34,154 nt of DNA from Eubacteriales bacterium (GTDB lineage Bacteria; Bacillota; Clostridia; Oscillospirales; Oscillospiraceae): contig JAUNND010000024.1 of NCBI GenBank assembly GCA_030531595.1, forward strand, positions 1 to 34,154, given 5' to 3'. Positions 1-15,374 of this stretch are shown piece by piece. A model generated the notes under the pieces. The model had not been told where the DNA came from. It worked only from the letters and a program-made list of their open reading frames with translations, and did no database searches. Each line of letters opens with the position of its first letter. Positions within the stretch are counted from its first letter, which is position 1. The position numbers were made by a program, and so were the translations under genes.

Positions 1-364
1 GAGCGGTCGACGGTGTGGGTTTGACTGTGGGAGCGGTCGACGGTGTGGGCTTTGCAGTCGGCGTGGGCGTGGGTTTGGATGCAGAGGATGTATCATTATA
101 TGTTACCACAGTCTGCGGCGCACCGTCCTGCAGCAAATCTCCTTCGATTTCCACAACGCCAAATGAAGCCGTTACCGTTCCCTCTTCATTCATGATCACC
201 GTAGCCGGTTCCGGGGTGGGCTCCGGAGTAGGCTCGGGGGTCGGTTCCGAGGTCGCGGTAGGCTCCGGACTTTCGGCGGGTGCTTCCGTCTTCGCGCCGC
301 AGGCTGCTATGAAGACAGCGAGCGCAAGAACGAGAAATACGGTAAGGATTCTTTGTTTTTTCAT
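1..364 (-). CDS. Pro-Thr-rich lipoprotein, 3' end cut off by the window edge
   Basis: The N-terminus is a bacterial lipoprotein signal: MKKQR, a hydrophobic stretch, then a lipobox (FIAAC) with the lipidated Cys at residue 22. The mature part opens with an acidic Pro-Thr-Glu linker (repeated EPTPEPTP), then a short non-repetitive stretch (about residues 53-90, beginning VIMNEEGTV), then another Pro-Thr/Pro-Ser repeat that runs off the window, so the functional domain is not visible. The start is ATG at 364-362 with AGAAAGGA about 10 nt upstream. It lies 32 nt downstream of the PqqD-like gene on the same strand and could be its operon partner. The function is not recognisable; a membrane-anchored extracellular protein is certain only from the signal sequence. 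Confidence 0.8.
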   Translation of the reverse strand, partial: MKKQRILTVFLVLALAVFIAACGAKTEAPAESPEPTATSEPTPEPTPEPTPEPATVIMNEEGTVTASFGVVEIEGDLLQDGAPQTVVTYNDTSSASKPTPTPTAKPTPSTAPTVKPTPSTA

Positions 365-396: not shown

Positions 397-663
397 TCAC
401 TCTGTTATGCAGCCGGTCTCACGCAGTTTTGTGACAAAGGCTTCTATATCGGTTCTCGCCTGCTGTTCGGATACATCGTACTCGGCGAGAATATTTTTCA
501 GAATTTCATCGAGCGTTGTCTCGTTTTCGAGCATATTCCAGATCGTCTGGCCCATATCGTTAAGGTTTATTATCGATTTGAAGTTTGCCGCGGCTTCGCC
601 TACGGGAACGAGAACGTGGTTATCCGCCACGTCGGTCATGATAAAATCGGGATTCTGTCTCAT
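397..663 (-). CDS. PqqD family peptide-binding protein (RiPP recognition element type)
   Basis: This 88-residue protein has the PqqD fold signature as seen in Firmicutes: an N-terminal winged-helix beta part (NPDFIMTDVADNHVLVPVG), then a central LNDMGQTIWNML helix, then an acidic stretch and a C-terminal helix ending KLRETGCITE. PqqD-type proteins bind the leader of a ribosomally made peptide and hand it to a modifying enzyme. I chose the ATG at 663-661: MRQNPDF matches the usual family start and has GAAAGGA about 12 nt upstream. Start codons at 675 and 684 would leave almost no room for a ribosome binding site. An HprK-like kinase gene lies upstream and a lipoprotein gene downstream. The gap to the kinase gene (194 nt) is filled with repeats, so cotranscription is likely but not assured. 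Confidence 0.87.
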   Translation of the reverse strand: MRQNPDFIMTDVADNHVLVPVGEAAANFKSIINLNDMGQTIWNMLENETTLDEILKNILAEYDVSEQQARTDIEAFVTKLRETGCITE

Positions 664-731
664 ATTGACAAGCATTCCTTTCATATAAAATGCGTATTCC
701 TGCCTTCCCCACTGGGAAAGCCATGTGCGCT

Positions 732-786
732 GTGCCTCCCTCTTTGAGGGAGGTGGCACGGCTGAAAGCCGAGACGGAAGGAGGCA
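732..786. repeat. Intergenic palindromic repeat, family C
   Basis: The stretch begins with a hairpin built from GCCTCCCTC / GAGGGAGG around a TTT loop. It continues with GGCACGGCTGAAAGCCGAG and ends GGAAGGAGGCA, which resembles its beginning in inverted form. I associate this sequence type with dispersed intergenic repeats in gut Clostridia. Only one copy is in this window, so the family assignment rests on memory. It abuts a copy of repeat family A, making a composite block between the hprK-like and pqqD-like genes. Confidence 0.5.
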
Positions 787-793
787 ATGTCGT

Positions 794-863
794 CAGGGCT
801 TGCTCGCGCCGTAACATCGCGGGAAATCCAACTTTTCGGCGGGAGCAAGCCCCCGCCCTACAG
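794..863 (-). repeat. Palindromic repeat family A, copy 1 (left arm degenerate)
   Basis: The right arm at 837-861 (CGGCGGGAGCAAGCC through CCGCCCTAC) is the reverse complement of the left arm found at 10345-10369 and 23794-23818. The opposite arm (794-811) is shortened and partly degraded. The internal spacer matches the reverse complement of the spacer in the 10345 copy, so this copy is inverted relative to that one. Its outer edge overlaps the stop codon of the HprK-like gene (860-858). Confidence 0.8.
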
Positions 864-1547
864 TGTGAAATCGTTAGCTAAACGCATGGCGTTATAGGTG
901 ATCATTTCCGCGCCGTCGTCGGCGTGGTTATAAAATTCAAACACGGGCACTTCCGTGACAAGTAAATTCACGAGCCGCATAAGCTTTTTCGCAAGCTCGG
1001 GCGTTCTTCTGCCGGTTGTCTGCTGCAGGACATAGCCCGCCGCCTGCAAAGGGGCAAGGCGATTTATCTGCGTGTCCCCACGGTGGAGGAAGCATATGCC
1101 CGCGACGGGGGCGCTGCTGTTATCATTAATGCCGTCCTTGCCGCACCACGGGGTACCGTAGGCGTACCACTTCCCGTCTATGCGTCTGAGGGCGGGCTTG
1201 TCGTCGTTTATAATAACTGCGTCGGGGAAGGTTTTCAGATATTTTTGTGTGTGGGTGGATTTGCCCATACCGCACGGGCCGGAAAACAGGTAGGCATAAC
1301 CGTCCACCACCACACAGGAGGCATGGAGCATCATGCCGTCAAAGTCCATCAGCTTCCGGTAAAACTGAAAGCCGCTCTCTAAATAATAATTATCACTTTC
1401 GGAAAGTTTTTCCCAGTAATCGGAACGCATTTCGTCCCGGTCAAGAATGATATCTAAATGGACGTCGGCAAGATATGACTTGCATCTCTCGGGCATATCC
1501 CCCACGGGAGGCACATCCACTCCTAATCCGGCTATTTTACAAATCAT
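858..1547 (-). CDS. HprK-like P-loop kinase (HPr kinase homologue of peptide-modification cassettes)
   Basis: This 229-residue protein carries an HPr-kinase-type P-loop (SGPCGMGKST, about residues 89-98). An INDDKPALR segment and YGTPWCGK (about 130-137) follow, as in HprK-related proteins of peptide-modifying gene clusters. True HPr kinase/phosphorylase is about 310 residues with an N-terminal DRTGG domain, which is absent here. Homologues pair with PqqD proteins in several cassettes, including lasso peptide clusters where an HprK homologue phosphorylates a precursor serine, and the cyanobacterial Scm cassettes. The likely role is ATP-dependent modification of a peptide, with the 36-residue peptide encoded just upstream as candidate substrate (inference). 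The start is ATG at 1547 with only a weak ribosome binding site (TGGAAAA). The stop codon TAG lies in the edge of a family A repeat. Confidence 0.82.
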   Translation of the reverse strand: MICKIAGLGVDVPPVGDMPERCKSYLADVHLDIILDRDEMRSDYWEKLSESDNYYLESGFQFYRKLMDFDGMMLHASCVVVDGYAYLFSGPCGMGKSTHTQKYLKTFPDAVIINDDKPALRRIDGKWYAYGTPWCGKDGINDNSSAPVAGICFLHRGDTQINRLAPLQAAGYVLQQTTGRRTPELAKKLMRLVNLLVTEVPVFEFYNHADDGAEMITYNAMRLANDFTL

Positions 1548-1599
1548 TGTTTTTATTTTCCATATAATCTTTTTTTGGGGTTATGCGCTTAACCGGACA

Positions 1600-1654
1600 C
1601 AGGACGGGAGCTAATGCTCCCGTCCTGCTCTTCTCCCCCGAAGGGGAGAAGAGC
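1600..1654 (-). other. Two tandem perfect hairpins between the 36-residue peptide and the kinase gene
   Basis: In the minus-strand transcript the first hairpin is a 12-bp stem (1643-1654 with 1627-1638) closed by UUCG, with a C-G closing pair: the hyperstable tetraloop class. The second is a 12-bp perfect stem (1616-1627 with 1600-1611) with an ATTA loop. They share base 1627, so they would stack or compete for it. No U-tract follows either, so they are not a classical intrinsic terminator. Position suggests an RNA stabiliser or partial attenuator that sets more peptide than kinase. Confidence 0.7.
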
Positions 1655-1707
1655 TTGTTGTTCAGTAGTCCTCTGAAACGAGGACTTGGGTTTGATATCC
1701 CATGTAA

Positions 1708-1818
1708 TCAACCGAGAGGATTATAAGACTTCAATCCAGTTTCGGGATCATCCAGTGTATAAATGTTTTCAGCTTCCAATTCAACGATTTCTACTGTAGG
1801 AACTTGATATTCTTTCAT
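1708..1818 (-). CDS. 36-residue peptide, candidate modified-peptide precursor
   Basis: The reading frame starts at ATG 1818-1816 and ends with TGA at 1710-1708. It has one of the best ribosome binding sites in the window (GAGGAG, then TATAAA, then ATG). The N-terminal two thirds is acidic and helix-prone (MKEYQVPTVEIVELEAEN). The C-terminal part is polar and turn-rich (DDPETGLKSYNPLG) with Ser, Thr and Tyr but no Cys. A conserved-looking acidic leader plus a variable short tail is what a RiPP precursor looks like. Similar short MKxYxxPxxEIxE peptides recur in Clostridia near surface proteins; this is from general knowledge. It lies 21 nt downstream of the giant secreted protein and just upstream of the HprK-like and PqqD-like genes. 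Function as a substrate is an inference. Confidence 0.72.
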   Translation of the reverse strand: MKEYQVPTVEIVELEAENIYTLDDPETGLKSYNPLG

Positions 1819-1839: not shown

Positions 1840-4800
1840 TTATTTAGATATCAGCGCTCCGTTTATAGACGATATCATATTAGTTGTTTCATTGTAAATC
1901 TCAAAGCTTCCCTGCAGCTTTGCGTTAGTAAGAGACTCCAATCCGGTAAATTTGGCATACAGCGCTTTGCTTCCTTTTGCATTGGCATATTCAATTAACA
2001 GGGAATCACTGAATGTGAATGTCTGCTTTCCACTGATACCACTCTGGCTGTCCCAAGTTACAGTTACAACAGCCTTAGCCCTTCCTAATTTAAGGGCATC
2101 ATAAACTTCTGCTGCTTCGGTGTCACTTTTCTGCAGCGCAAACAGGAATTGGTCATTTTCATTAGTATCCCATGCATTTGCAACAGCGAGATCATAGAAC
2201 TGATATCCTGTTCCGTTGTAAACAGGCAGATATATCTTTTCTCCATCCCCGCCTCTCGGGAGCACATAACCGTCTGCACTTACAATGCCCTTGGTCGCTG
2301 CGGTCGTCATGGAATCCTTGATACTACCGGTGACATACATCATTGTTGCGCCGGAGATGTTGTGGCCAGCAAGATCAAGAGTGACATTGGTCTTGACAGT
2401 GACATACTCTTCATCACTGATGTCAGCCAGAAGCTGGACTTCCTGATCTTCGCCGGCATCCTTTGCTTCCTTAAGTGCTGCAGTGAGGGTGGTGTATACC
2501 TTTCCGCTGCCGACATTCTTGGCGACTACATCCTGTACTTCGGACACCTTGAGCTCGAATTCGGAGAAGTGGTCGCTTGCAAGCTCTACGTATCTGTCGG
2601 GACTGATGCCCTGAACCTGACGCAGACCCAGGTCTGTTCCAGAAGGATTGTTCACAGGATCGTCATAGTGGATCACTTGGACAGCCTTAACATCGCCCAT
2701 GGATGCGGGAACCGCGAGACGGAACTTGAGAGATACGCCGGCTTCTCTAAGCTCATCATTGGTGATCTTGCGAGTTTCTGTCTGATCACCATTCTGAATA
2801 GTGACCCAAGGCTCGACATCGTAGGTTGCCTTGGTGGTGGTCACTGTCTTTGCACTGATTGCACTTACCTCTGTCTTTTCAGTGGTAGCGGCAACAGACT
2901 TGACGGTGATCTTCAGCTGCTCGGACTTTTCAAGCAGACTCTTAAGGCTTTCAACATTCTGGAGCTTGTCTTCAACCTCTTTACTCTGGATGTTGGTTGC
3001 ACCCTCAGCGGTTACAGCCTCATTCTTAGTGATCTCGCTAAGAACCTCATCAACAACTGCCGCGGGAACACCTTCCTGTGCGCCTACGGGAACTTCAATA
3101 TTTTCCTTGCTTGCTTCCTTGAATTCCTTTTCGTCAACTATCGGTTTTACGGGATCGACATCGGTCTTTGCCTCGCCGATGGTGTAGAGGTAACCTTCTG
3201 CCAATGTCGTTTCATCGGTGTTGGCAACGCAAGCCTTACCCTCGACGATGTAAGCAGCATCGACTTCACTGCTGAACAGACCGCCGGAGATAGCGAATGA
3301 TCCGGTTTCGTCAGCCATGTAGAGCTTACCGATAAATTTACCGCCGCTGATCATTGCATCACCGCAATCGCCATAGCCGTTGTTCAGTTTAATGACATAG
3401 TCGAAGTTGGTGAATGTGCCATTGGTAATGGTCAGTTTGCCAAGATTTTCATCACCGGAATCGCCGCCGCTGGAGATCGCAGTAGAACCTGAAACTCCAT
3501 TGCCGATGAATTCACCGCCGTTGATGGTTACATCCGTCCAGCTGTTGACCACAGAATACTGGGCGTTCTCGGTTTCCTGCTTAAAGGTACCGCCGTTGAT
3601 GGTGAGGTAGGAAGTGTGGACATTCTCTCCGTTGACATTTTTCTCATCACCGTCATTCTTGACAACATTGCAGCCATACTTGGAGGTAAAGGTGCCGTTC
3701 TCAATGGTCATGGTACCGAGGTTTCTGATCAGAGAGGAGTTGTCTCCATCGTCTGCATCGACGAAGAAGCCGTTACCTATAATGGTCAGTGTACCCTGGT
3801 TATCAATGTTGTAGGACGAGATAGTGTTATCGCTGGATTCTGTCAGAGTGAATCCCGCCATATCAAGGGTGAGAATTTTGCCCGGACGTACAAGAACGCT
3901 TTCCGTGACACTGGTCAGCAGCGTGACGGTGTCATTGTCTTTTGCTGCGTCAAGTGCCGCCTGAAGGGTCTCATACTTCTGGCCGCCAATGATCTGGGCG
4001 ACAGCTTTACCGATAGTATAGGGGTAATCTGCCTTGGTCGCGTCATCGGTGTTGACAACGCAAGCCTGACCCTCGACGATGTAGGCAGCGTCAACTTCCT
4101 GACTGAACAGACCGCCGGAGATGAAGCCGGTCTTGTCGAACTGCTCGGAGACCATGAAGTCGGAGGTCTTGTCTGCGCCGCTGCCGATCATGCCTCCATT
4201 GATCTTAATGCTCTTCACGGAGCTTTCCGTCGTGCCGCTTGCAACGTATTCATAGATCGCAACGCCGTTTTCACTGGTGACCTTTGCGCCATTGTTGATA
4301 TCGATCATGATATTGCCGGCATAGCCAATGTTGCTTTCGATCTGGATAGCTGCGCCGGAGGCATTCACGCCGCTGCTGTGCTCAGCGGTGGGAGTGGTAT
4401 CCTCGCCTGTGCAGGTGACTTCTGCGCCATTATTGATATACAGCTTACCTGCCTTGATAGCTATACCACTATCTTCGCCGGTGATCTTGCCGGCGACCAC
4501 AGTATTTGCATAGCCGGCTAAGTAGAGACCGCCTTTGACGGTGGCAACTTTACCGATCACGATGTCGGGGCGGTAAAAATCTGTAACATTCTTGATCTGA
4601 CCGTTGACCGTCACGCCGTAGTTAGTGTCGATGATGACATTTCCGGTTTCACCCTGAGCAGGCTCACCTATTCTAACAGTTACACCGTTGGCATAGCCGT
4701 TGTTGTTCATGACTGCGACGCCGTAGGTATCGCCGCCCTTGATCGTTACATAGTCATTAACCTCAAGCTCGGTGTAGCCGGAGGACTTATTTTGGGTCGT

Positions 4801-7800
4801 ACCCACGACCTCGATGCCGTAGTATTCGCCCTTGCCGTATTCGGAGTTGAGGTTGATCGTGCCCGTGCCATTGATCTTGAGAGTTGCCTTCTCGATCCGG
4901 AAGAGATCATTGGTCTCGCCGGTAGAGATGTCGTGACCGTTCATGTCAAGGTCAATGGAAGGATTGAAATATTTCCAAGCCGTATCGGAGACACCGGAAA
5001 CATTGATCTTCTGATCGACTGTAACGTTGTCAAGCAGAGTGATCGTTCTTGTTGTGGAGTCATAGTCGCCGTTCTGCTTCAGTGCTGCGGCGAATGCTTC
5101 TGCGAGGGTGGCGTACTTCACATCGCCGATCTGGGCGACAGCTTTACCGATAGTATAGGGGTAATCTGCCTTGGTCGCATCATCGGTGTTGGCAACGCAA
5201 GCCTTACCCTCGACGATGTAGGAAGCGTCAACTTCCTGACTGAACAGACCGCCGGAGACGAACTTGGTGACAGGTTCGTAGGTTTCATCCTTGGTAATGG
5301 CCATGACCGCAACTCCATGCGTGCTCTTGAATTGTCCGCCGGAAATAGAAACATTTTCGATGCCATTCGGATAATTGCAGCTGTCGATCACGAGTGCGTC
5401 GCCGGTAGCTGCGCAGCCATTGCCGTCAAACTTATACTCCTTCTTTGCACCGGTGCCGATGATGGTACCGCCGGTGATGTTGAGGTTGGTGGACTTGAAG
5501 TACACCGCCGTCTCGCCGGTAATGGTACCGCCGGTGATGTTCAGAGTGCCGTTGGGGATGTAGACAGAAACATCGATTCCATCTCCTGTAGCGACAATGT
5601 TCGCGCCTTCTTTGATGTTGACAATGGAGCCTGCGTTGTATGCGTTGCCGTTGGTTGCAATGTAACCTTTGACTGTGCCTTCAACATTCAGGGTGTTCAC
5701 ACCAAATACAGCGACAACACCGTTTACGGTTGCGCCGGTTCCGATGGTCAGATCGCTGCCCTTGATCTTGGTGCCTTCCTTGTTCTCGCCGACACGAACC
5801 TGTCCGTTTACAGTAGTGCCGCTTCCGAGAGTTACTATACCGCCGGTGGCCTCGACCTTACCGTTGATCACGGATGTGCCGGTCACGTTGACAGTGGGTG
5901 CGGTGTAATTCTGGTTTCCATCATAGTAGGAGTCAAATGCAAAGTCGCCATTTGCTGCGGTGATGGTGGTGGTGTTCTTAATAGTTGTTGTGCCGTTGTT
6001 AACGGACAGAACGTAACGAGGAGTGGTGCCGCCGTTGCGGGAAACATTGGTACCGTCAACGGTCATGTTGTCCAGAGTCAGATCGCAGTAGTTCTGGATA
6101 ACAAATGCTATGCCCTTCGGATCACCTGTCCAGGTATAATCCTTGTTTTCCGCTGCAACATTGATGGTACCATTCTGGAAGACGATCGTGCTGCCCTTCA
6201 GGAGCTGGAATGCCTGGGTCTTGGTATTCGTAGAACCTGCGCCGGGCTTGTTCACGGTGTAGGTGTGATGCTGGAAGTCGACCGTGAAGTTCTTGTTGCC
6301 GGAAACGGAGATACCCTTTGCATTGGTCTCGTCTGCGATCATCTTGATCTCTGTTGCCGTCTGGCCGTTCTCAGGAACCGCTGCGATTGCTTCTGCGAGG
6401 GACTCGTACTTGTCATCGCCGATCTGGGCGACGTAGGTCTTGGGAGCCAGCACCTTTGCGCCGTCTTCTCCATCGACCCACTTGTAATCTGCGGGAGCTT
6501 CGGGAAGCATGGTTTCGGGTGCCTTAACCTTAACGTTGAGTACATCGCGGTCGCCGCCAACCTCGACCTTGCCGGTCACGGTAACGTCTTCCTCAATGGT
6601 GAGGGAAACGCCGGTGTATGCAGTGCTGCCGCTTGCCCAGTCATAGAGGTCGTATGCAACGCCGCCTTCGGCTGCGATGATCTTGGTGCCGGTCTTGAAT
6701 AAGATATTGCCGTTGTTGTTGGAAAGGGTGTACTTAGTACCGATGAGGTTGGTGCCGTCCAGCTTAACATTGTCCAAAGTGAGATTGGAGTAGTTCTGGA
6801 TGAGCATCTTTGCCTGTGCTTCTGCGGTGGTGGTGATGGTACCGTTCTTGATGGTAACATTGTTGCCTGCGAGAAGCTGGAATGCCTGAGTCTTGGTTCC
6901 GGTGGAGCCGGTGAGGTTACCGTTTACGGTGTAAGTATAGTTATTGAGATCAATGGTCAGGCTCTTATTGATCTTGATGCCGTCGCCGGTTGCATCCTGC
7001 AGCAGCTTGATGGTATCGCCGCTCTGTGCTGCTGCGACTGCCTCGGCGAGAGAGCTATAAGGTTCTGCGCCGATCATTGCCACTGTCGGCTCCGCAGTCA
7101 TCAGAATGTTGGAGAAGTGGTGGATGATCAGAGTGACCTTCTTTGCGGTTTCATCGTATACAAAGGTACTGCCGGAAGGTGTCTGACCCTTTGTATAAAC
7201 GCTCTGTTCGCCGTCATCAGCAATATGAATAACTGTCTTTGGCTCAAAGTCGGAGAAGATATTGACCGTGATGTTCTGGGTCTGATCGATCATTTCGTTG
7301 GTAACTTTGATGCCTTCGACCGTTGCGGTCACACTATCTCCACTCTTAGCGATAACCGTTGCAACGGGAGTCAGGTCGAATTTCAGGGTGTTTTCAGCTT
7401 CATAGCCCGTAGGTGTGACAACAACGTCAACCTCAACCTTGATCTCATCAGCTGCTTTGATCGCTTCGACTTTTTCGGTCTTCAAAGCTTCATTAACGAT
7501 CTGCTGAACGCCGGAGACAACGCCCTCGGTGGTCTTCAGCTCCACGCCGGAAACGCTGGTGCTGGCTTCGACTTCTTCTTTGTTGAGACCAGCGGGAATT
7601 TCTTTATCATCAACAGAGGAGGTCTGCTCGGTGGTGACAGTAGTCTCTTTTGAGGGGTCGTCGGGGTCAACTACAACAACAGACTTTCCGTCGGTGAAGT
7701 ATGCGGTGAGCTGATTGACATTTACAGCTTCCTCTGCCTTCACCATTTCGCCGCTATCAATATAGAACTTGCCGGCGGGGATGGGTGTACCTTCGTCTGC

Positions 7801-9549
7801 TGTCCCCGCAACAGTGTAATCTACAGCATTTTTGGGGATCGCGCCGTTCTTTGTCAGCTTGTACTGGATTTCTTTAATAGTGTAAGTATTTTCACCTTCA
7901 ATATAAGCACTGGAATTCTGAATCAGTTCAGGATCATTGAAATTATCAGGATCAAAGATTCTGAGTTTGACGGTCATTGTGGTGTCGTTGTTTGCAGAGC
8001 TGAGGTTGAACGCACCGCAATAAAACTCGCCGACATATTCAATGATCTGGTTATAAGTCCAGTTGCTGTTATTCATCATGGTGTTCAGCAGGGGGATTTC
8101 TACGTTTGCCGGAATTCCCCTAGGTGCAAGGAAACCGAGTCCGATTCCCCATGTTCCGTAATAGCCCACAAGACCCATGGAATCCTTTGCAACAGGCTTA
8201 TCAAAGGAGATGGTGTAGTCTGCGAACCAATTACCGTAGTCGGATTCGCCTACTTCCTCAGTAGCCGCAAACTTGTACGCGCAGTCGGGGATCTGAAGCG
8301 TGTACAGACCGCTGCCGCTGAGAGACACGCCATTGCTGAAGTCGCAAATGGGGAAGCCATCCTGTCCGACAACCTTTGCCAGTGCGGCAAGATGCTCAGG
8401 ATTTGTGAGGTCATAGGTCGTTACTTCCGCAACGGGAAGCTTCTTTGCCTCGACCTTTGCGCCGTTTTCGTAGACCTTGACACCGTCTAAATACACAGTG
8501 ATGTTATGTACATCCGATTCTGTCTTGACATCGTCAACCTGTACAAGCGGACTGAGAGCAAGACCAGTCGTACCGTCTCCATTGTCCCAACTATCTCCTG
8601 CTGCAGGGAACATAGTAGGATCACCTACTGAGCAGTTAGAAATTGAAACGTCATAGTAAAGCTGATTATTATTGCAACACGAATCTTTGACATTAAATGC
8701 TGCCTTATTCTTTACATCCGAATTGAAAGTGCATCCTGATGCAGTAATTACCCAAGAACCATTGCCTTCATTGTAGACATTGAAGAATTTTCCATGTCCA
8801 TAGAAAATGCAATCCGTAAAGGAGCATTGCTTTCCGTAAAGCCACATGCAATAATCGCCATCAGGACCATTGAAAGTGCAGCCGGTGAAGGTCATATTAC
8901 CATAAGAGAAGAACTTGCCATTCAGAATACAGTTCTTCATGGTAATATCGCCCGCGCCCTGGAAGCCATGATAGTTTACGCACCCAAAATTGAATGTTAC
9001 ATTATCAAATGTGCATCCATTAGGAACAGACGCAACACTACCTGATGTTGTATGCTCGAACACTACGCCGTCAACAGTGCCCTTAATGGTGATGTTGTTG
9101 GGAATGTTGGGCAGAGTGTAGGTGCCAGCCACAGTGATTTCAACAGTATCACCTGCATTTGCCGTTGCAACAGCAGTATTAAGCTCATCCTGTGTTGCTG
9201 CCTGACGAGTCGTGCCATCAGCCGGAGTCAGATACCGCTTCATCTCATTGGAAGCATTCACTTCTTCCTCTTCGACGGACTCTGCGACGACATCAGTCAG
9301 AGTCTCGACGACATCTGTCAGGATCATGGGATCCTCATTTAATTCGGGAACTACGGCGTTGTCTGCCACAGTCTCCTCGATAACCTCCGGAATCTCCGGA
9401 ATTACGATCTCTTCAACCTGTGCATCAAGCTGCTCTTCAACGACCTCAGCAACGTTTTCTTCCGCGAAAACCGCTGTCGGTAACAGAGAAAGAGACATCA
9501 CAACTGCAAGGAACAGGCAAAAAAATCGCTTGCTCATTTTTGTCTTCAT
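1840..9549 (-). CDS. Giant secreted right-handed beta-helix repeat protein (2569 residues)
   Basis: A type I signal peptide (MKTKMSKRFF, hydrophobic core, PTAVFA before EE at 30-31) shows export. A Glu-rich segment (about 30-100) is followed by a Cys-containing beta-helix (about 110-310) with recurring GCTF, NCIL and DCIF turns. An unrecognised domain follows (about 390-540). Two related segments at about 640-820 and 2150-2340 end in a shared DHFS/HHFS motif. Between and after them lie five modules of the type QIGDxKYxTLAEAxAA...TIxLLxD...LDLxG, beginning near residues 824, 1040, 1472, 1850 and 2345. Each is followed by Gly-Thr-rich beta-helix coils (NGTI, ITGGT). There is no LPXTG motif, no SLH or cell-wall repeat, and no C-terminal membrane helix, so surface retention is unexplained. 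The start ATG has AAGGAGG 5 nt upstream. The likely role is an adhesin or glycan-binding surface fibre; no catalytic site is evident. Confidence 0.92.
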   Translation of the reverse strand: MKTKMSKRFFCLFLAVVMSLSLLPTAVFAEENVAEVVEEQLDAQVEEIVIPEIPEVIEETVADNAVVPELNEDPMILTDVVETLTDVVAESVEEEEVNASNEMKRYLTPADGTTRQAATQDELNTAVATANAGDTVEITVAGTYTLPNIPNNITIKGTVDGVVFEHTTSGSVASVPNGCTFDNVTFNFGCVNYHGFQGAGDITMKNCILNGKFFSYGNMTFTGCTFNGPDGDYCMWLYGKQCSFTDCIFYGHGKFFNVYNEGNGSWVITASGCTFNSDVKNKAAFNVKDSCCNNNQLYYDVSISNCSVGDPTMFPAAGDSWDNGDGTTGLALSPLVQVDDVKTESDVHNITVYLDGVKVYENGAKVEAKKLPVAEVTTYDLTNPEHLAALAKVVGQDGFPICDFSNGVSLSGSGLYTLQIPDCAYKFAATEEVGESDYGNWFADYTISFDKPVAKDSMGLVGYYGTWGIGLGFLAPRGIPANVEIPLLNTMMNNSNWTYNQIIEYVGEFYCGAFNLSSANNDTTMTVKLRIFDPDNFNDPELIQNSSAYIEGENTYTIKEIQYKLTKNGAIPKNAVDYTVAGTADEGTPIPAGKFYIDSGEMVKAEEAVNVNQLTAYFTDGKSVVVVDPDDPSKETTVTTEQTSSVDDKEIPAGLNKEEVEASTSVSGVELKTTEGVVSGVQQIVNEALKTEKVEAIKAADEIKVEVDVVVTPTGYEAENTLKFDLTPVATVIAKSGDSVTATVEGIKVTNEMIDQTQNITVNIFSDFEPKTVIHIADDGEQSVYTKGQTPSGSTFVYDETAKKVTLIIHHFSNILMTAEPTVAMIGAEPYSSLAEAVAAAQSGDTIKLLQDATGDGIKINKSLTIDLNNYTYTVNGNLTGSTGTKTQAFQLLAGNNVTIKNGTITTTAEAQAKMLIQNYSNLTLDNVKLDGTNLIGTKYTLSNNNGNILFKTGTKIIAAEGGVAYDLYDWASGSTAYTGVSLTIEEDVTVTGKVEVGGDRDVLNVKVKAPETMLPEAPADYKWVDGEDGAKVLAPKTYVAQIGDDKYESLAEAIAAVPENGQTATEIKMIADETNAKGISVSGNKNFTVDFQHHTYTVNKPGAGSTNTKTQAFQLLKGSTIVFQNGTINVAAENKDYTWTGDPKGIAFVIQNYCDLTLDNMTVDGTNVSRNGGTTPRYVLSVNNGTTTIKNTTTITAANGDFAFDSYYDGNQNYTAPTVNVTGTSVINGKVEATGGIVTLGSGTTVNGQVRVGENKEGTKIKGSDLTIGTGATVNGVVAVFGVNTLNVEGTVKGYIATNGNAYNAGSIVNIKEGANIVATGDGIDVSVYIPNGTLNITGGTITGETAVYFKSTNLNITGGTIIGTGAKKEYKFDGNGCAATGDALVIDSCNYPNGIENVSISGGQFKSTHGVAVMAITKDETYEPVTKFVSGGLFSQEVDASYIVEGKACVANTDDATKADYPYTIGKAVAQIGDVKYATLAEAFAAALKQNGDYDSTTRTITLLDNVTVDQKINVSGVSDTAWKYFNPSIDLDMNGHDISTGETNDLFRIEKATLKINGTGTINLNSEYGKGEYYGIEVVGTTQNKSSGYTELEVNDYVTIKGGDTYGVAVMNNNGYANGVTVRIGEPAQGETGNVIIDTNYGVTVNGQIKNVTDFYRPDIVIGKVATVKGGLYLAGYANTVVAGKITGEDSGIAIKAGKLYINNGAEVTCTGEDTTPTAEHSSGVNASGAAIQIESNIGYAGNIMIDINNGAKVTSENGVAIYEYVASGTTESSVKSIKINGGMIGSGADKTSDFMVSEQFDKTGFISGGLFSQEVDAAYIVEGQACVVNTDDATKADYPYTIGKAVAQIIGGQKYETLQAALDAAKDNDTVTLLTSVTESVLVRPGKILTLDMAGFTLTESSDNTISSYNIDNQGTLTIIGNGFFVDADDGDNSSLIRNLGTMTIENGTFTSKYGCNVVKNDGDEKNVNGENVHTSYLTINGGTFKQETENAQYSVVNSWTDVTINGGEFIGNGVSGSTAISSGGDSGDENLGKLTITNGTFTNFDYVIKLNNGYGDCGDAMISGGKFIGKLYMADETGSFAISGGLFSSEVDAAYIVEGKACVANTDETTLAEGYLYTIGEAKTDVDPVKPIVDEKEFKEASKENIEVPVGAQEGVPAAVVDEVLSEITKNEAVTAEGATNIQSKEVEDKLQNVESLKSLLEKSEQLKITVKSVAATTEKTEVSAISAKTVTTTKATYDVEPWVTIQNGDQTETRKITNDELREAGVSLKFRLAVPASMGDVKAVQVIHYDDPVNNPSGTDLGLRQVQGISPDRYVELASDHFSEFELKVSEVQDVVAKNVGSGKVYTTLTAALKEAKDAGEDQEVQLLADISDEEYVTVKTNVTLDLAGHNISGATMMYVTGSIKDSMTTAATKGIVSADGYVLPRGGDGEKIYLPVYNGTGYQFYDLAVANAWDTNENDQFLFALQKSDTEAAEVYDALKLGRAKAVVTVTWDSQSGISGKQTFTFSDSLLIEYANAKGSKALYAKFTGLESLTNAKLQGSFEIYNETTNMISSINGALISK
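3991..4121 (-). repeat. Long direct repeat inside the giant gene, copy 1
   Basis: This 131-nt segment matches 5128-5258 with 4 differences counted by eye (about 97% identity). It encodes the linker ending one beta-helix block and starting the next (SGGLFSQEVDA, IVEGQACV, YPYTIGKAVAQI). The DNA identity is far higher than the surrounding modules show, which points to recent duplication or gene conversion. Confidence 0.9.
5128..5258 (-). repeat. Long direct repeat inside the giant gene, copy 2
   Basis: This is the partner of 3991-4121. A third, clearly diverged copy of the same linker lies at about 3170-3290, where YPYTIGKA has become YLYTIGEA. Recombination between copies 1 and 2 would remove 1137 nt, a multiple of three, so the reading frame would be kept. 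Confidence 0.9.
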
Positions 9550-10499: not shown

Positions 10500-11756
10500 T
10501 CATGACCACACTTCCGTATCCGGAAGGGCGATATACCCGTGGGTATTCGTGTCCCAGACCGGAAGAGACTGTATTTCCAGTTCAAAGGCGCGGGTTATAT
10601 GCGTGAGAGTAAAATGCCGCCCAAGCTCGTCTACGCGGTACAGCCCGATGCTCACATAGAACTTCCCGCCGCCAAAGTCCGACAGCGGCAGCGCAAAATC
10701 AAGCTCCCGCCGCCCCGGCTCCGACGAGACGAACGGCTTTGACCACGACGTCGCTATCGCCGCATCGCTCTGACTGCGAAAAGTCAGGCGCAGACAGAGT
10801 TTTTCCGTCGCCTTTCGGTCTATGACCGCCGTCAGTCGCAGTCTCAGCAGCTCCTCCGGCACATACACCGGCGTGACCTTGTCCGTCAGCACAAGACGCT
10901 CCATTATAACGCCGTTCTTCCCCGCGTCCTTGCCGCTCAGGTCGATGTCCACAGGGTCGCCGTCAAGATTGTAGTTCATATAGACCGATATCGCCTGCTC
11001 CACATCGCCGTCATAGATCACCCGACCCTGATTGAGCACGATGCAGCGGTCACACAGGCGGCGGATCGTGTCCATATTGTGGCTGACATACAAAACCGTC
11101 TTGCCCTCGGTATCTGCCGCCTCGCGCATTTTGTCAAGACACTTGCGCTGAAACGCCATGTCTCCTACCGCGAGGACTTCATCCATCACAAGGATCTCGC
11201 TGTCCAGAAAAGCCGCCACCGCAAACGCAAGCTTTACATACATCCCCGAGGAATACCGCTTCACCGGCGTGTCGATAAACTCCGCGATCTCCGAGAACTC
11301 TATGATCTTATCGAGCTTCGAGTCGATCTCCGAGCGCGACATACCGAGAATAGCGCCGTTCATATAGATATTTTCGCGCCCCGTCAGCTCACGGTGAAAT
11401 CCCGTGCCGATCTCCAGAAGGGAGCTTATGCGTCCCGTAATGTCGATCTCGCCCTCCGTCGGCGCAGTTATGCGGCTCAAAAGCTTCAAAAGCGTCGATT
11501 TTCCCGCTCCGTTGCAGCCGATGATGCCCACACGTTCACCGGCAAAGATCGTCACGTCAATGCCGTTGAGCGCCCAGAACTCCTGCCCGACACGGCTCAC
11601 ATCCGCGCCGATACGGATGTTCGGGTCTTCCCTGCCGCGCCTTTTCGCCCACCGGCTCTGCAGCTCCGCACGAAGCGTCGTCCCGCCGATCACGCCGAGA
11701 CGGTACCGCTTCTTCACGCCCTTTATTCTGATGGCAATCTCTCTCTGTTCGTCCAT
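10500..11756 (-). CDS. Polysaccharide/teichoic acid ABC exporter ATP-binding protein (Wzt/TagH type)
   Basis: The protein (418 residues) is the ATPase of an ABC-2 glycan exporter, acting at the inner face of the membrane. It has an N-terminal segment typical of Wzt/TagH (VKKRYRLG), Walker A GCNGAGKST (80-88), signature YSSGM (168-172), Walker B ILVMDE (188-193) and the switch motif SHNMD. The last ~160 residues form a beta-rich domain resembling Wzt C-terminal domains, which in some O-antigen systems read a terminal glycan modification. Its start is 10 nt downstream of the permease stop, so the two are an operon. No glycosyltransferases are in the window, so the exported glycan is unknown. 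The gene ends 8 nt from a family B hairpin. Confidence 0.92.
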   Translation of the reverse strand: MDEQREIAIRIKGVKKRYRLGVIGGTTLRAELQSRWAKRRGREDPNIRIGADVSRVGQEFWALNGIDVTIFAGERVGIIGCNGAGKSTLLKLLSRITAPTEGEIDITGRISSLLEIGTGFHRELTGRENIYMNGAILGMSRSEIDSKLDKIIEFSEIAEFIDTPVKRYSSGMYVKLAFAVAAFLDSEILVMDEVLAVGDMAFQRKCLDKMREAADTEGKTVLYVSHNMDTIRRLCDRCIVLNQGRVIYDGDVEQAISVYMNYNLDGDPVDIDLSGKDAGKNGVIMERLVLTDKVTPVYVPEELLRLRLTAVIDRKATEKLCLRLTFRSQSDAAIATSWSKPFVSSEPGRRELDFALPLSDFGGGKFYVSIGLYRVDELGRHFTLTHITRAFELEIQSLPVWDTNTHGYIALPDTEVWS

Positions 11757-11766
11757 ACGCGCTTCC

Positions 11767-12600
11767 TCAGACCGTATCCATAAAGGTGCGCTCCACCTTG
11801 TTGAATATCATTATCCCGAAAAATACGACCGCCGCCGTAAAAACGAGCGACCACACAAGACTCCAGACGCACACGTTTCCACTCCCGAACAGCGCAAGCC
11901 GGAACAGCTCCACCGGCGCAGTGACCGGATTGAGCCAAAACAGCGTCCGCAGAGCGCCGCCGACCGAGCTCATGGGATATACTACCGGTGTCGCATACAT
12001 CCAGAGCTGAAGCCCAAAGTCCACCAGTACCGTCAGGTCGCGGTATTTCGTCGTCAGCGACGATATGATGATACCCACGCCCATGCCCATCAGCCCCAGC
12101 TCCGCGATCACCGGCAGCACCGTCAGCAGCATCGGCAGATCGGGACGCACGCTTCCTTTTAAAAGGAAGTAAATATAGAGCACCAGCACCAGCAGCATCT
12201 GGATGGCAAAGCGCACAAGCCCGCTCAGAATATCCGAGATCGGTATCACAAGGCGCGGAAAATACACCTTTCCGAAAAGATACGCGTTGTTGGTAAAGGT
12301 GACGGAGTTTTCTTTCACTCTGCCCGAGAAAAAGCCCCAGACGGCATTGCCCGCCATATAAAACAAAAGCTGCGGCACTCCCTCCGTGGACAGCTTCGCA
12401 ATGTTCCCGAAAAGAATGACATACGTGACCGACGTCAGCAGCGGATTGATCAGCAGCCACAGCGGTCCCAATATCGTCTGTTTGTAGCTGACCTGAAAGC
12501 TGCGGCGCGTAAAGAGAAATATAAGCTCCCAATACTCCCGCACCTCGGAGAGCTTGAGGTCGAACAGATCATGTTCGGCACTGATATGTGTATGTTTCAT
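11767..12600 (-). CDS. Polysaccharide/teichoic acid ABC exporter permease (Wzm/TagG type, ABC-2)
   Basis: This is a 277-residue membrane protein with the ABC-2 permease layout. It has a cytoplasmic N-terminus and an amphipathic start. WELIFLFTRRSFQVSYKQTILGPLW is split by the family-typical RRSFQVRYKQ-like loop before the first membrane helix. About six hydrophobic segments follow, including LLINPLLTSVTYVILF and LMGMGVGIIISSL. The family hallmark WLNPVTAPVELFR precedes the last helices. It pairs with the ATPase encoded directly downstream to move lipid-linked glycan across the membrane. It is transcribed from the promoter at 12638-12666, divergently from the sortase-like gene. Confidence 0.92.
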   Translation of the reverse strand: MKHTHISAEHDLFDLKLSEVREYWELIFLFTRRSFQVSYKQTILGPLWLLINPLLTSVTYVILFGNIAKLSTEGVPQLLFYMAGNAVWGFFSGRVKENSVTFTNNAYLFGKVYFPRLVIPISDILSGLVRFAIQMLLVLVLYIYFLLKGSVRPDLPMLLTVLPVIAELGLMGMGVGIIISSLTTKYRDLTVLVDFGLQLWMYATPVVYPMSSVGGALRTLFWLNPVTAPVELFRLALFGSGNVCVWSLVWSLVFTAAVVFFGIMIFNKVERTFMDTV

Positions 12601-13460: not shown

Positions 13461-13489
13461 TTGCGCATAATACCTGTAAATGGTATATT
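13461..13489 (+). promoter_or_regulatory. Probable promoter for hflK-hflC
   Basis: TTGCGC (13461-13466), a 17-nt spacer and TATATT (13484-13489). Transcription would start at about 13496, which lies past the ATG at 13480 and so favours the GTG start at 13525. Confidence 0.5.
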
Positions 13490-13524
13490 CGTCTCGGAAA
13501 TATTTACAGAAAGGAACGTTTCGC

Positions 13525-14505
13525 GTGAACAATAACGGCACCTATCAGGATGCCCAATACAGCGGCGGCGGAAGAAAGAGCTTCAATTTCTCCAAGGGAT
13601 TGATCATCGTCATAGCCATCGTGCTTATCGCCGGTCTGCTCGTATTCGACTCCTACTACACTCTGAAAGATGACCAGTACGCGGTCATCACGACCTTCGG
13701 CAAGCCCACAGCGGTCTCTGCCTCCGGATTGCAGTTCAAAATTCCCTTTATCCAGCAGGTCACAAAGGTCTCCAAGACAATTCAGGGCTTCCCTCTCGGC
13801 TATCGCAGCGACAGCAACGTCAACGTGGACGAGGAGTCCCTGATGATCACCTATGACTACAATTTCGTCAATGTGGACTTCTACGTCGAATACCGTGTGA
13901 CCGATCCCATCAAGTTCCTCTACAACTCCGAGGATCCCGTCGGTATCCTGAAAATGCTCTGCCAGAGCTATATCCGCGATACTATCGGTCTTTATGACGT
14001 CGACAGCGTCATTACCACCGGCAAGAGTGAAATCCAGTCCTCCATCAAGGAAAAAGTCGTCAACCGTCTGGAGAGCGAGGACATCGGTCTCCAGCTCACC
14101 AACATCACCATTCAGGACGCAGAGCCGCCAACCTATGAGGTACAGCAGGCATTCACCGCCGTCGAGACCGCAAAGCAGTCCGCCGACACGACCGTGAACA
14201 ACGCCAAGAAGTACGCCAATCAGGTCACTCCCGCCGCCAAGGCCGACGCCGACGAGATAATCAAGAAGGCCGAGGCATACAAGCAGAGCAAGATAAACGA
14301 AGCGGAGGGTCAGGCAGCGCGTTTCTCGGAGCTGTTCAATGAGTACGAAAAATACCCGCTCATAACAAAACAGCGTCTCTTCTACGAGGCGATGGAGAAA
14401 ATTCTGCCCGATATGAAGCTTTATATCATCGACGCCGATACCGGTGTGCAGACCGCTCTGCCCCTTGATAACTTTGCGGAAATAGGAGGCGTTGAGACAA
14501 AATGA
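13525..14505 (+). CDS. hflK: SPFH-domain membrane protein HflK
   Basis: This is a 326-residue SPFH/band 7 protein. A short polar cytoplasmic N-terminus (NNNGTYQDAQYSGGG) precedes one membrane helix (LIIVIAIVLIAGLLVF). Next come the SPFH domain starting DDQYAVITTFGKP, with FKIPFIQQV, and a long Ala/Lys/Glu-rich helix (PAAKADADEIIKKAEAYKQ). HflK and HflC form a membrane assembly that encloses and tunes the FtsH protease in bacteria where it has been studied. The start is GTG at 13525 (GAAAGGA 10 nt upstream); the in-frame ATG at 13480 would sit before the likely transcription start. The stop overlaps the hflC start by 4 nt (ATGA), so the two are translationally coupled. ftsH is not in the window. 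Confidence 0.88.
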   Translation: MNNNGTYQDAQYSGGGRKSFNFSKGLIIVIAIVLIAGLLVFDSYYTLKDDQYAVITTFGKPTAVSASGLQFKIPFIQQVTKVSKTIQGFPLGYRSDSNVNVDEESLMITYDYNFVNVDFYVEYRVTDPIKFLYNSEDPVGILKMLCQSYIRDTIGLYDVDSVITTGKSEIQSSIKEKVVNRLESEDIGLQLTNITIQDAEPPTYEVQQAFTAVETAKQSADTTVNNAKKYANQVTPAAKADADEIIKKAEAYKQSKINEAEGQAARFSELFNEYEKYPLITKQRLFYEAMEKILPDMKLYIIDADTGVQTALPLDNFAEIGGVETK

Positions 14506-15374
14506 AAAAAGCACTGAAAATAGTCATTCCTCTCGTCGCGCTCCTTCTGATCGTGTGCATCATGGGCGGCTGCTTCGTCGTCACCCATCAGAATGAGTAC
14601 ACCATCGTGCGCCAGTTCGCCGCCGTCGTCAAGATCATCGACCACCCGGGTCTGTCGCTCAAGGTCCCCTTCATCCAGACTACGAGCACCCTGCCGAAGA
14701 CCGAAATGCTCTATGACCTCGCCGTCAGCGATGTCATAACGAGCGATAAAAAATCCATGGTCGCCGACAGCTTCGTTCTCTGGCGCATCTCCGACCCGCT
14801 CAAGTTCATTCAGTCTCTTTCGGGAAACATCGGAAATGCAGAATACAGGATCGATACGGTCGTCTACAACAGTCTGAAAACCGTCATCAGCTCCATGAAG
14901 CAGGAGGATGTTATCTCCGGCCGTGACGGACTTCTCGCGCAGAAGATAATGGCCAACGTGGGCAATACCTTTGAAAAGTACGGTATAACCGTTCTCGCCA
15001 TCGAGACAAAGCGCATCGACCTGCCGGACGAGAACAAGTCCGCCGTCTATGAGCGTATGATCTCCGAGCGCGGAAACATCGCCGCTTCATTCGTCGCCGA
15101 GGGCGAGGCCGAGGCAAAGAGAATACGCAACGAAGCGGACAAGTCGGTTGAGATAACCATTTCCAAGGCCAACTCCGACGCTGAGAAGCTCAAGGCCGAG
15201 GGCGAGGCAGAATATATGCGCATCCTCTCCGAAGCCTACAACACCCCCACCGAGGCTGATTTCTATGAATTCATGAGAGCGCTCGACATGGCGACCGCCT
15301 CCATGGGCGGCGGCAACAAGACGCTCGTCGTCTCCTCCGAGTCCCCCCTCGCAAAGCTGTTTACCGGCAAATAA
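14502..15374 (+). CDS. hflC: SPFH-domain membrane protein HflC
   Basis: This 290-residue partner of HflK has an N-terminal membrane helix (IVIPLVALLLIVCIMGG). The SPFH domain begins NEYTIVRQFAAVV, with LKVPFIQ, and the family-typical DKKSMVADSFVLWRISDP. A C-terminal coiled helix (AEGEAEAKRIRNEADKS) precedes a region ending FEF-like YEFMRALD. This order is that of HflC. The start overlaps the hflK stop by 4 nt. An intrinsic terminator follows 6 nt after the stop, so hflK-hflC is a closed two-gene unit. Confidence 0.9.
   Translation: MKKALKIVIPLVALLLIVCIMGGCFVVTHQNEYTIVRQFAAVVKIIDHPGLSLKVPFIQTTSTLPKTEMLYDLAVSDVITSDKKSMVADSFVLWRISDPLKFIQSLSGNIGNAEYRIDTVVYNSLKTVISSMKQEDVISGRDGLLAQKIMANVGNTFEKYGITVLAIETKRIDLPDENKSAVYERMISERGNIAASFVAEGEAEAKRIRNEADKSVEITISKANSDAEKLKAEGEAEYMRILSEAYNTPTEADFYEFMRALDMATASMGGGNKTLVVSSESPLAKLFTGK

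Follow-up and report, generated by a model that had tools for sequence, protein, structure and literature searches.

A clostridial peptide, kinase and RRE cassette as a probable diverged variant of the linear polyphosphorylated peptide systems

What might be made by a cassette that joins the gene for a 36-residue peptide to genes for an HprK-like kinase and a PqqD-like protein, and where would the product act? The question is raised by a stretch of 34,154 nucleotides (the window) that makes up the entire contig C116 in the 2.3-Mb, 121-contig genome assembly (completeness 92.22%) of a bacterium of the Eubacteriales, related to the Oscillospiraceae. The original prediction for this DNA allowed for a minimal kinase-type RiPP system with no lasso cyclase, which was essentially right: systems of this kind were described in May 2026 under the name linear polyphosphorylated peptides (LPP), a RiPP family (PMC13381572). 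We conclude that the cassette is probably a reduced, diverged clostridial variant of an LPP-type system and that its product most likely acts at the cell surface.

As described for LPP, the lppA-K-B-S-D-N genes of Paenibacillus alginolyticus encode a pathway in which, judged from deletions in B. subtilis, LppK phosphorylates the precursor and LppS cleaves it, and in which LppB binds the YxxP leader (PMC13381572). The precursors are of 35–200 aa, with a YxxPxV leader and a variable C-terminus; the published leader continues as LxHQxIxFETxxS, with Ser3 phosphorylated, and Thr at the site is not accepted by LppK (PMC13381572). Thr is accepted by BsfK, which with BsfB1 forms an RRE-stimulated HprK-like kinase that acts on a YxxPxL precursor in a phosphorylated lasso system (PMC10368454).

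The window locus and its counterparts in the same genome

All three genes are on the minus strand, where the peptide comes first, then the kinase and then the RRE, as read from the frames in the window. The peptide frame (1708..1818, with its ATG at 1818 and its stop at 1708) is preceded by AGGAG at a 6-nt spacer, which bears out the excellent ribosome binding site that had been attributed to it. Its leader, YQVPTV, fits YxxPxV, with Tyr4 and Pro7 as the fixed residues, and its tail is acidic and variable. The RRE gene (397..663) has longer frames that begin at 675 or 759, but the start that agrees with homologues yields 88 aa, the length originally predicted for a PqqD-like protein, and the product matches PF05402 at 1.2e-17. 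An RRE profile matches TfuB1, PbaB1, TbiB1 and LppB, with LppB scoring lowest; the window RRE is no closer to LppB than to the RREs of lasso systems.

The kinase gene (858..1547) encodes 229 aa that retain His75, GxxGxGKS and NDDKP, and no N-terminal HPr-kinase domain was found in it. A Pfam search gave no HprK match, and the NCBIfam matches to ScmC (3.2e-5) and HprK_rel_A (0.034) both fall far below cut-off. These are the nearest named models, and the SynChlorMet ScmC and HprK_rel_A systems have other partners. PF07475 was matched by one of 45 kinase homologues, across which H75, G95, K96 and D116 are invariant and G93 is almost so. Against PDB sequences there was no match at a threshold of 0.01, and at a threshold of 10 there were weak PEPCK and HprK matches amid ABC proteins. 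The frame foreseen for an HprK-like P-loop protein without its N-terminal domain is thus present, and its assignment to HprK is one of remote homology with the catalytic residues kept. The His, the P-loop and the Asp-Asp motif are common to the window kinase and BsfK (PMC10368454).

Perfect or near-perfect inverted repeats lie between the three genes, at 796-852, which recurs in a second copy of the cassette on contig C111, and at 1600-1654, which consists of two perfect repeats between peptide and kinase (1600-1627 and 1627-1654). A terminator or attenuator between peptide and kinase was considered and rejected, the 12-pair terminator-like site being in the wrong orientation.

The trio is flanked on both sides by genes for secreted-type proteins, neither of which figured in the original description. 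Upstream, a gene on the same strand (1840..9549) encodes a 2569-aa protein with a Sec-type N-terminus, as judged by a hydropathy script, and stops 21 nt ahead of the peptide. Downstream, a lipoprotein-like gene (2..364, minus strand), of which the window holds the N-terminal part with a lipobox-like Cys recognized by eye and a Pro/Thr linker, leaves the contig at position 1. Farther away are a pair of ABC-2 type transporter genes, which precede that of the giant (10500-12600, minus strand), and two overlapping SPFH/Band_7 genes on the plus strand (13480-14505 and 14502-15374).

Two other loci in the genome carry a kinase with an RRE, one on C111 (kinase 83% identical to that of the window) and one on C58 (32%). 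The C111 locus repeats the order of the window, with a giant secreted protein (4357 aa, Beta_helix PF13229), a 33-aa peptide, the kinase, the RRE and a lipoprotein. DNA similarity between the two copies, at 84%, runs from the start of the kinase through the RRE and lipoprotein genes; neither the peptide nor the compared stretch of the giant shows a match. Within the kinase, pS falls from 0.77 in the first 60 codons through 0.39-0.48 in the middle to 0.16 at the end, and it is 0.13 in the RRE, a gradient such as gene conversion would give. Taken with a pN/pS of 0.21 for the kinase paralogues and the lack of a match in the peptide, the gradient suggests that the kinase and RRE module has been kept and homogenised, while the peptide and the giant differ.

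Where does the cassette go beyond position 1? The last gene fragment of C112 (C112:5794-6018) is the C-terminal part of a lipoprotein of the same sort, 82% identical in DNA to that of C111 over 180 nt. Given that the end missing from the window lipoprotein is probably there and that the contig has no overlap with the start of the window, C112 probably adjoins the window across the Pro/Thr repeat. An NTP transferase (PF14907) is likewise encoded on C112, which has no match to a protease model and no exporter that we could see by eye. Thus, of the larger cluster proposed to continue to the left, the lipoprotein does continue, probably onto a contig with an NTP transferase, but the protease and exporter of such a cluster are not found there. 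Nor is a linked protease or exporter seen beside the window or C111 copies. Elsewhere in the genome an orphan LppS-like protease homologue lies on C29 (1.2e-35) and a second, weak match on C89 (1.3e-4), and beside the C58 paralogue is a 605-aa protein that by its sequence resembles an ABC exporter.

Cassettes and precursor peptides of related genomes

With the window kinase as query, matches at 1e-8 were found in 39 of 200 family genomes; with an 11-row kinase profile at 1e-30, matches were found in 76 of 400 family genomes and 106 of 391 genomes of the class, the host genome included. Six named loci come from four Oscillospiraceae MAGs, one Clostridia MAG and one Anaerostipes, with sources given for two (water buffalo cecum and roe deer colon). 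We read 88 kinase loci, comprising 40 of the 57 rows found with the window kinase outside its own genome, eight family and 32 class rows (mostly the stronger ones) found with the profile, five of the six named loci (L080 repeats L039), the window and the two paralogous loci of its own genome.

In many of the relatives the order is peptide, kinase, RRE, a signal-peptidase-like protease of about 155 aa, an MsbA-type exporter of about 560 aa and an NTP transferase, which is the complete order of lppA-K-B-S-D-N (PMC13381572). A census of 114 neighboring proteins found MsbA-type ABC proteins in 19 and NTP_transf_5 in 11. The LppS-like protease is present at 49 of the 88 loci, in every case on the strand of the kinase, and at 24 of the 27 loci with a recognizable peptide versus 25 of the 61 at which none was detected by our pattern and leader model. 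It matches the archaeal-type signal peptidase I model TIGR02228 below the curated cut-off (3.1e-8 for L107, 0.0024 for L082) and SipW weakly, and its Ser, His and Asp are invariant. A PqqD-like gene lies no more than 1.5 kb downstream of the kinase at all 27 peptide loci. Elsewhere in the set, the L102 kinase frame (6506-7663, minus strand) encodes 385 aa that match the signal-peptidase-like model as well, so that kinase and leader protease are here naturally fused, and some cassettes are set among capsule genes such as Wzz and CpsB/CapC, as reported for Bacilli (PMC13381572). Carriage on phage or plasmid was rejected, two phage and three plasmid records having given matches below 60% identity.

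The 27 peptides (out of 88 kinase loci) are short frames on the kinase strand, 97 to about 1620 nt upstream of it, that carry the leader [YF]xxPxxE[VI]xxFxxE[DE]; 22 were found by pattern and five by a leader model built from those 22, whose matches below 0.02 all lie on the strand of the kinase. We left out weak frames at L005 and L104 and the Cys-containing peptides of seven loci of radical-SAM type (L061, L064, L065, L073-L075 and L084). The consensus is YxxPxxEVVxFxxEDI, followed by an acidic and variable tail. Position 0 is aromatic in 27 of 27 by construction, being the anchor, and there is Pro at +3 in 25, an acidic residue at +6 in 23, Phe at +10 in 21 and an acidic residue at +14 in 25. 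That the window peptide is more than a chance frame is indicated by the kinase 83% identical to its own that lies among the same neighbors on another contig, and by the leader model's discovery of upstream kinase-strand peptides in relatives, including five on which it had not been trained.

Purifying selection on the leader shows in three pairs of peptides. All come from relatives; a close orthologue of the window peptide was not found. In the tandem peptides of L092 pN/pS is 0.056 (13 synonymous and three nonsynonymous changes, one of them in the start codon); for L089 and L090, of one genus, it is 0.125 in the leader versus 1.15 in the tail; and for L107 and L109, also of one genus, it is 0.072 in the leader. 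The tandem genes at L092 are near-identical, at 323 and 112 nt ahead of the kinase frame, and GTG is the start codon of the second. The original prediction took the peptide to be the substrate and called for a search of homologous loci for the trio and for a leader conserved while the tail varies. Both were found, and together with homology they support the peptide as RRE-guided substrate of a kinase that would phosphorylate it.

Which residue would be modified? By alignment, Thr21 of the window peptide is nearest to the position at which the LPP and Bsf kinases modify Ser. A Ser is near this site in 16 of the 27 peptides and is absent there from the window tail; enrichment near the site is not significant for Ser and Thr together (P 0.24) but is significant for Ser alone (P 0.013). 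Aligned on LPP geometry, the border between leader and tail would fall near residues 18-20 of the window peptide, and the exact core once proposed, PETGLKSYNPLG, is not upheld.

Two kinds of locus stand apart. The diverged HprK-like kinases of L061, L064, L065, L073, L074, L075 and L084 lie by Cys-containing YxxP peptides, and a gene family is common to these loci, its representative at L084 being a radical SAM protein. Of these kinases, five are in our tree, where they fall within one supported group of six. At L005 (contig C58, 12556-12954, minus strand), near the third kinase and RRE pair and the ABC protein, a 132-aa protein with a leader-like start (EMEFVTFDAQDVIATSGG) is possibly a long precursor, matching the leader model weakly (0.18).

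Secreted proteins flanking the cassette

A tree of 84 of the 88 kinases (the rest having been removed by a length filter), whose bootstrap had not settled, places the window kinase in a supported clade of ten (100/99). All ten members have a peptide and a secreted partner encoded downstream of the RRE, nine have a giant directly upstream, and seven have the protease; of the other three, L081 is cut by a contig end. This linkage is new.

It extends in part to the wider set. With two of the 27 peptide loci untestable at contig ends, a large secreted-type protein ends no more than 200 nt upstream of the peptide at 20 of the other 25 (19 if at least 500 aa is demanded), and none is found at L058, L087, L089, L090 and L120. 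Eight of the 20 proteins are complete with a Sec-type N-terminus, 11 are cut by the end of the stretch and are of at least 585 aa, and L110 (390 aa in our frame) was counted for the 62% identity of its C-terminus to that of L108. Six of the cut giants, retrieved whole, have 2618-5012 aa and Sec-type N-termini; for secretion signals we relied on a simple hydropathy script and on inspection by eye. Among loci with no detected peptide, nine of 59 testable ones have such a protein under a looser distance and a 500-aa limit.

The C-terminal domain of the window giant (1843..2322) is common to seven further giants linked to cassettes, and has no match below 0.4 among PDB sequences. A profile from these eight was searched against nine genomes at 0.01. 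In the seven genomes that had supplied it, all eight matches are the eight cassette loci, which match their own profile by construction; what is informative is that these genomes have no other match. In G615, the genome of L092, there are three matches in three consecutive giant genes, the third internal to the 3026-aa frame next to the cassette rather than terminal, and G229, the genome of L087, where there is no giant upstream, has two weaker matches on other contigs.

The partners are lipoprotein-like in the window and at C111, have a short hydrophobic N-terminus at L082 and L092, and are SLH-like in the other members of the clade; the L039 partner, the sole one scanned singly, matches Pfam SLH at 0.054. 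In an alignment of nine partner C-termini, that of the window being taken from C112 and the cut L081 left out, a weakly conserved domain of about 55 aa follows a flexible linker. By these features the partners are likely surface anchors, and the linkage points to the cell surface as the site of action. Stretches of the partner genes at L083 (1155-2306, the end), L052 (5810-6619) and L092 (8113-8667) resemble the tail of the local peptide, and at L083 peptide and partner both end in NQLPLG. Copying of the tail from the partner is not general: over 14 loci the resemblance has a P of 0.03, and with these three removed a P of 0.70 over 11 loci.

A proposed pathway and its alternatives

The window cassette resembles LPP systems in its HprK-like kinase, its discrete RRE, its short YxxPxV precursor (here 36 aa), the variable C-terminus of that precursor and the lack of a cyclase (PMC13381572). 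It differs from them in having no linked protease or exporter, in having Thr rather than Ser near the site, and in a leader that after YxxPxV continues as ExVxxFxxEDI and not as LxHQxIxFETxxS; in addition, a giant secreted protein and a partner are linked to the window cassette, and its host belongs to the Clostridia (PMC13381572). We therefore call it an LPP-like variant and not a member, on account of the unlinked protease and exporter and the distal part of the leader.

We envision that the RRE would bind the YxxP leader and present the peptide to the kinase, which would phosphorylate a hydroxyl residue just past the leader, with Thr21 as the best-placed candidate. A signal-peptidase-like protease would remove the leader, and the linear peptide would be exported. 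Since neither protease nor exporter is linked to the window copy, both would have to act in trans, the protease being the C29 orphan and the exporter that beside the C58 paralogue. The product would then work, most likely at the cell surface, with the upstream giant and the downstream lipoprotein-like or SLH-like partner.

It is unlikely, if less so than the other alternatives, that the window contains an LPP-like system in decay, or an orphaned one, in which processing or export of the peptide has been lost, as the unlinked protease and exporter at both C116 and C111 and the missing Ser at the usual site could suggest. Against decay, purifying selection acts on the kinase copies (pN/pS 0.21), which resemble each other most toward the 3' end and in the RRE, the pattern expected of gene conversion; a strong ribosome site precedes the peptide; and the LppS-like orphan and the C58 exporter-like protein remain in the genome. 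More improbable still is that the giant or the partner is the target of the kinase and RRE, with the peptide as a regulator or decoy. The close linkage among the genes for surface protein, partner and kinase would fit such a scheme, as would the likeness of tail and partner at three of 14 loci, but that likeness is weak overall (P 0.03, and P 0.70 in the remaining 11), the YxxP motif that an RRE binds sits on the peptide, secreted proteins exit the cytoplasm, where the kinase should be, and in the LPP and Bsf systems it is the peptide that is the substrate (PMC13381572, PMC10368454).

Clusters for lasso peptides in ruminal bacteria do contain a kinase, a PqqD protein and an NTP transferase (PMC7533575), and paeninodin-type systems likewise pair an HprK-like peptide kinase with an RRE and an NTP transferase; these, however, have a lasso cyclase, a WxxP leader and a C-terminal Ser as the site (as cited in PMC7533575 and PMC13381572). 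A B2 protease and a lasso core belong to the Bsf system (PMC10368454), and we found neither here. The B2 leader peptidase, PF13471, has no match in the host genome (for which the completeness of 92.22% should be borne in mind) and none above cut-off in 24 genomes of relatives, two of which have weak matches below it. Asn_synthase has two partial matches in the host just above cut-off, at 25.1 and 21.2 bits on C108 and C45, in frames of 337 and 380 aa; they cover 40 and 102 of 354 positions and are not at any cassette. In lasso peptides an acidic residue stands at positions 7-9 of a core that starts with Gly, and these positions have none in the window peptide. That the window is the edge of a lasso cluster with a tailoring kinase is thus highly improbable, and we rejected it. 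The notion that the 36-codon frame is due to chance or is the read-through tail of the giant, with whose stop it is in phase in the window (gap 0), is of negligible probability, given its own Met and ribosome site, a leader that is conserved and under purifying selection in relatives, and in-frame placement at about the chance level (gap 0 in seven loci), for which last reason read-through of the giant's stop codon was rejected.

To return to the LPP-like variant that we favor, what might its phosphopeptide do? The first description of LPP gives their role as unknown, with speculation on biofilms from capsule loci, and reports experiments and genome mapping on Bacilli; its main text mentions neither "surface" nor "Clostridia," although its supplements may list Clostridia (PMC13381572). 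Among the open-licence papers that we consulted, on LPP, lasso and other RiPP systems and on unrelated subjects, we met no surface link for LPP-like cassettes, which may be reported elsewhere. A more specific and tentative idea, which we consider doubtful, is that the phosphopeptide serves, as a structural element or a switch, in a machine for surface display, in which a beta-helix giant with a dedicated C-terminal domain and a partner anchored in membrane or wall, whose own C-terminal domain sits on a flexible linker, would be coupled by the exported peptide. If true, this would provide a function for LPP-type peptides and a new way of attaching surface proteins. The linkage seen throughout the clade makes the question of LPP function testable, with eight loci that hold the sole copies of the C-terminal domain in their genomes, and the clade brings the LPP-like systems of the Clostridia into view.
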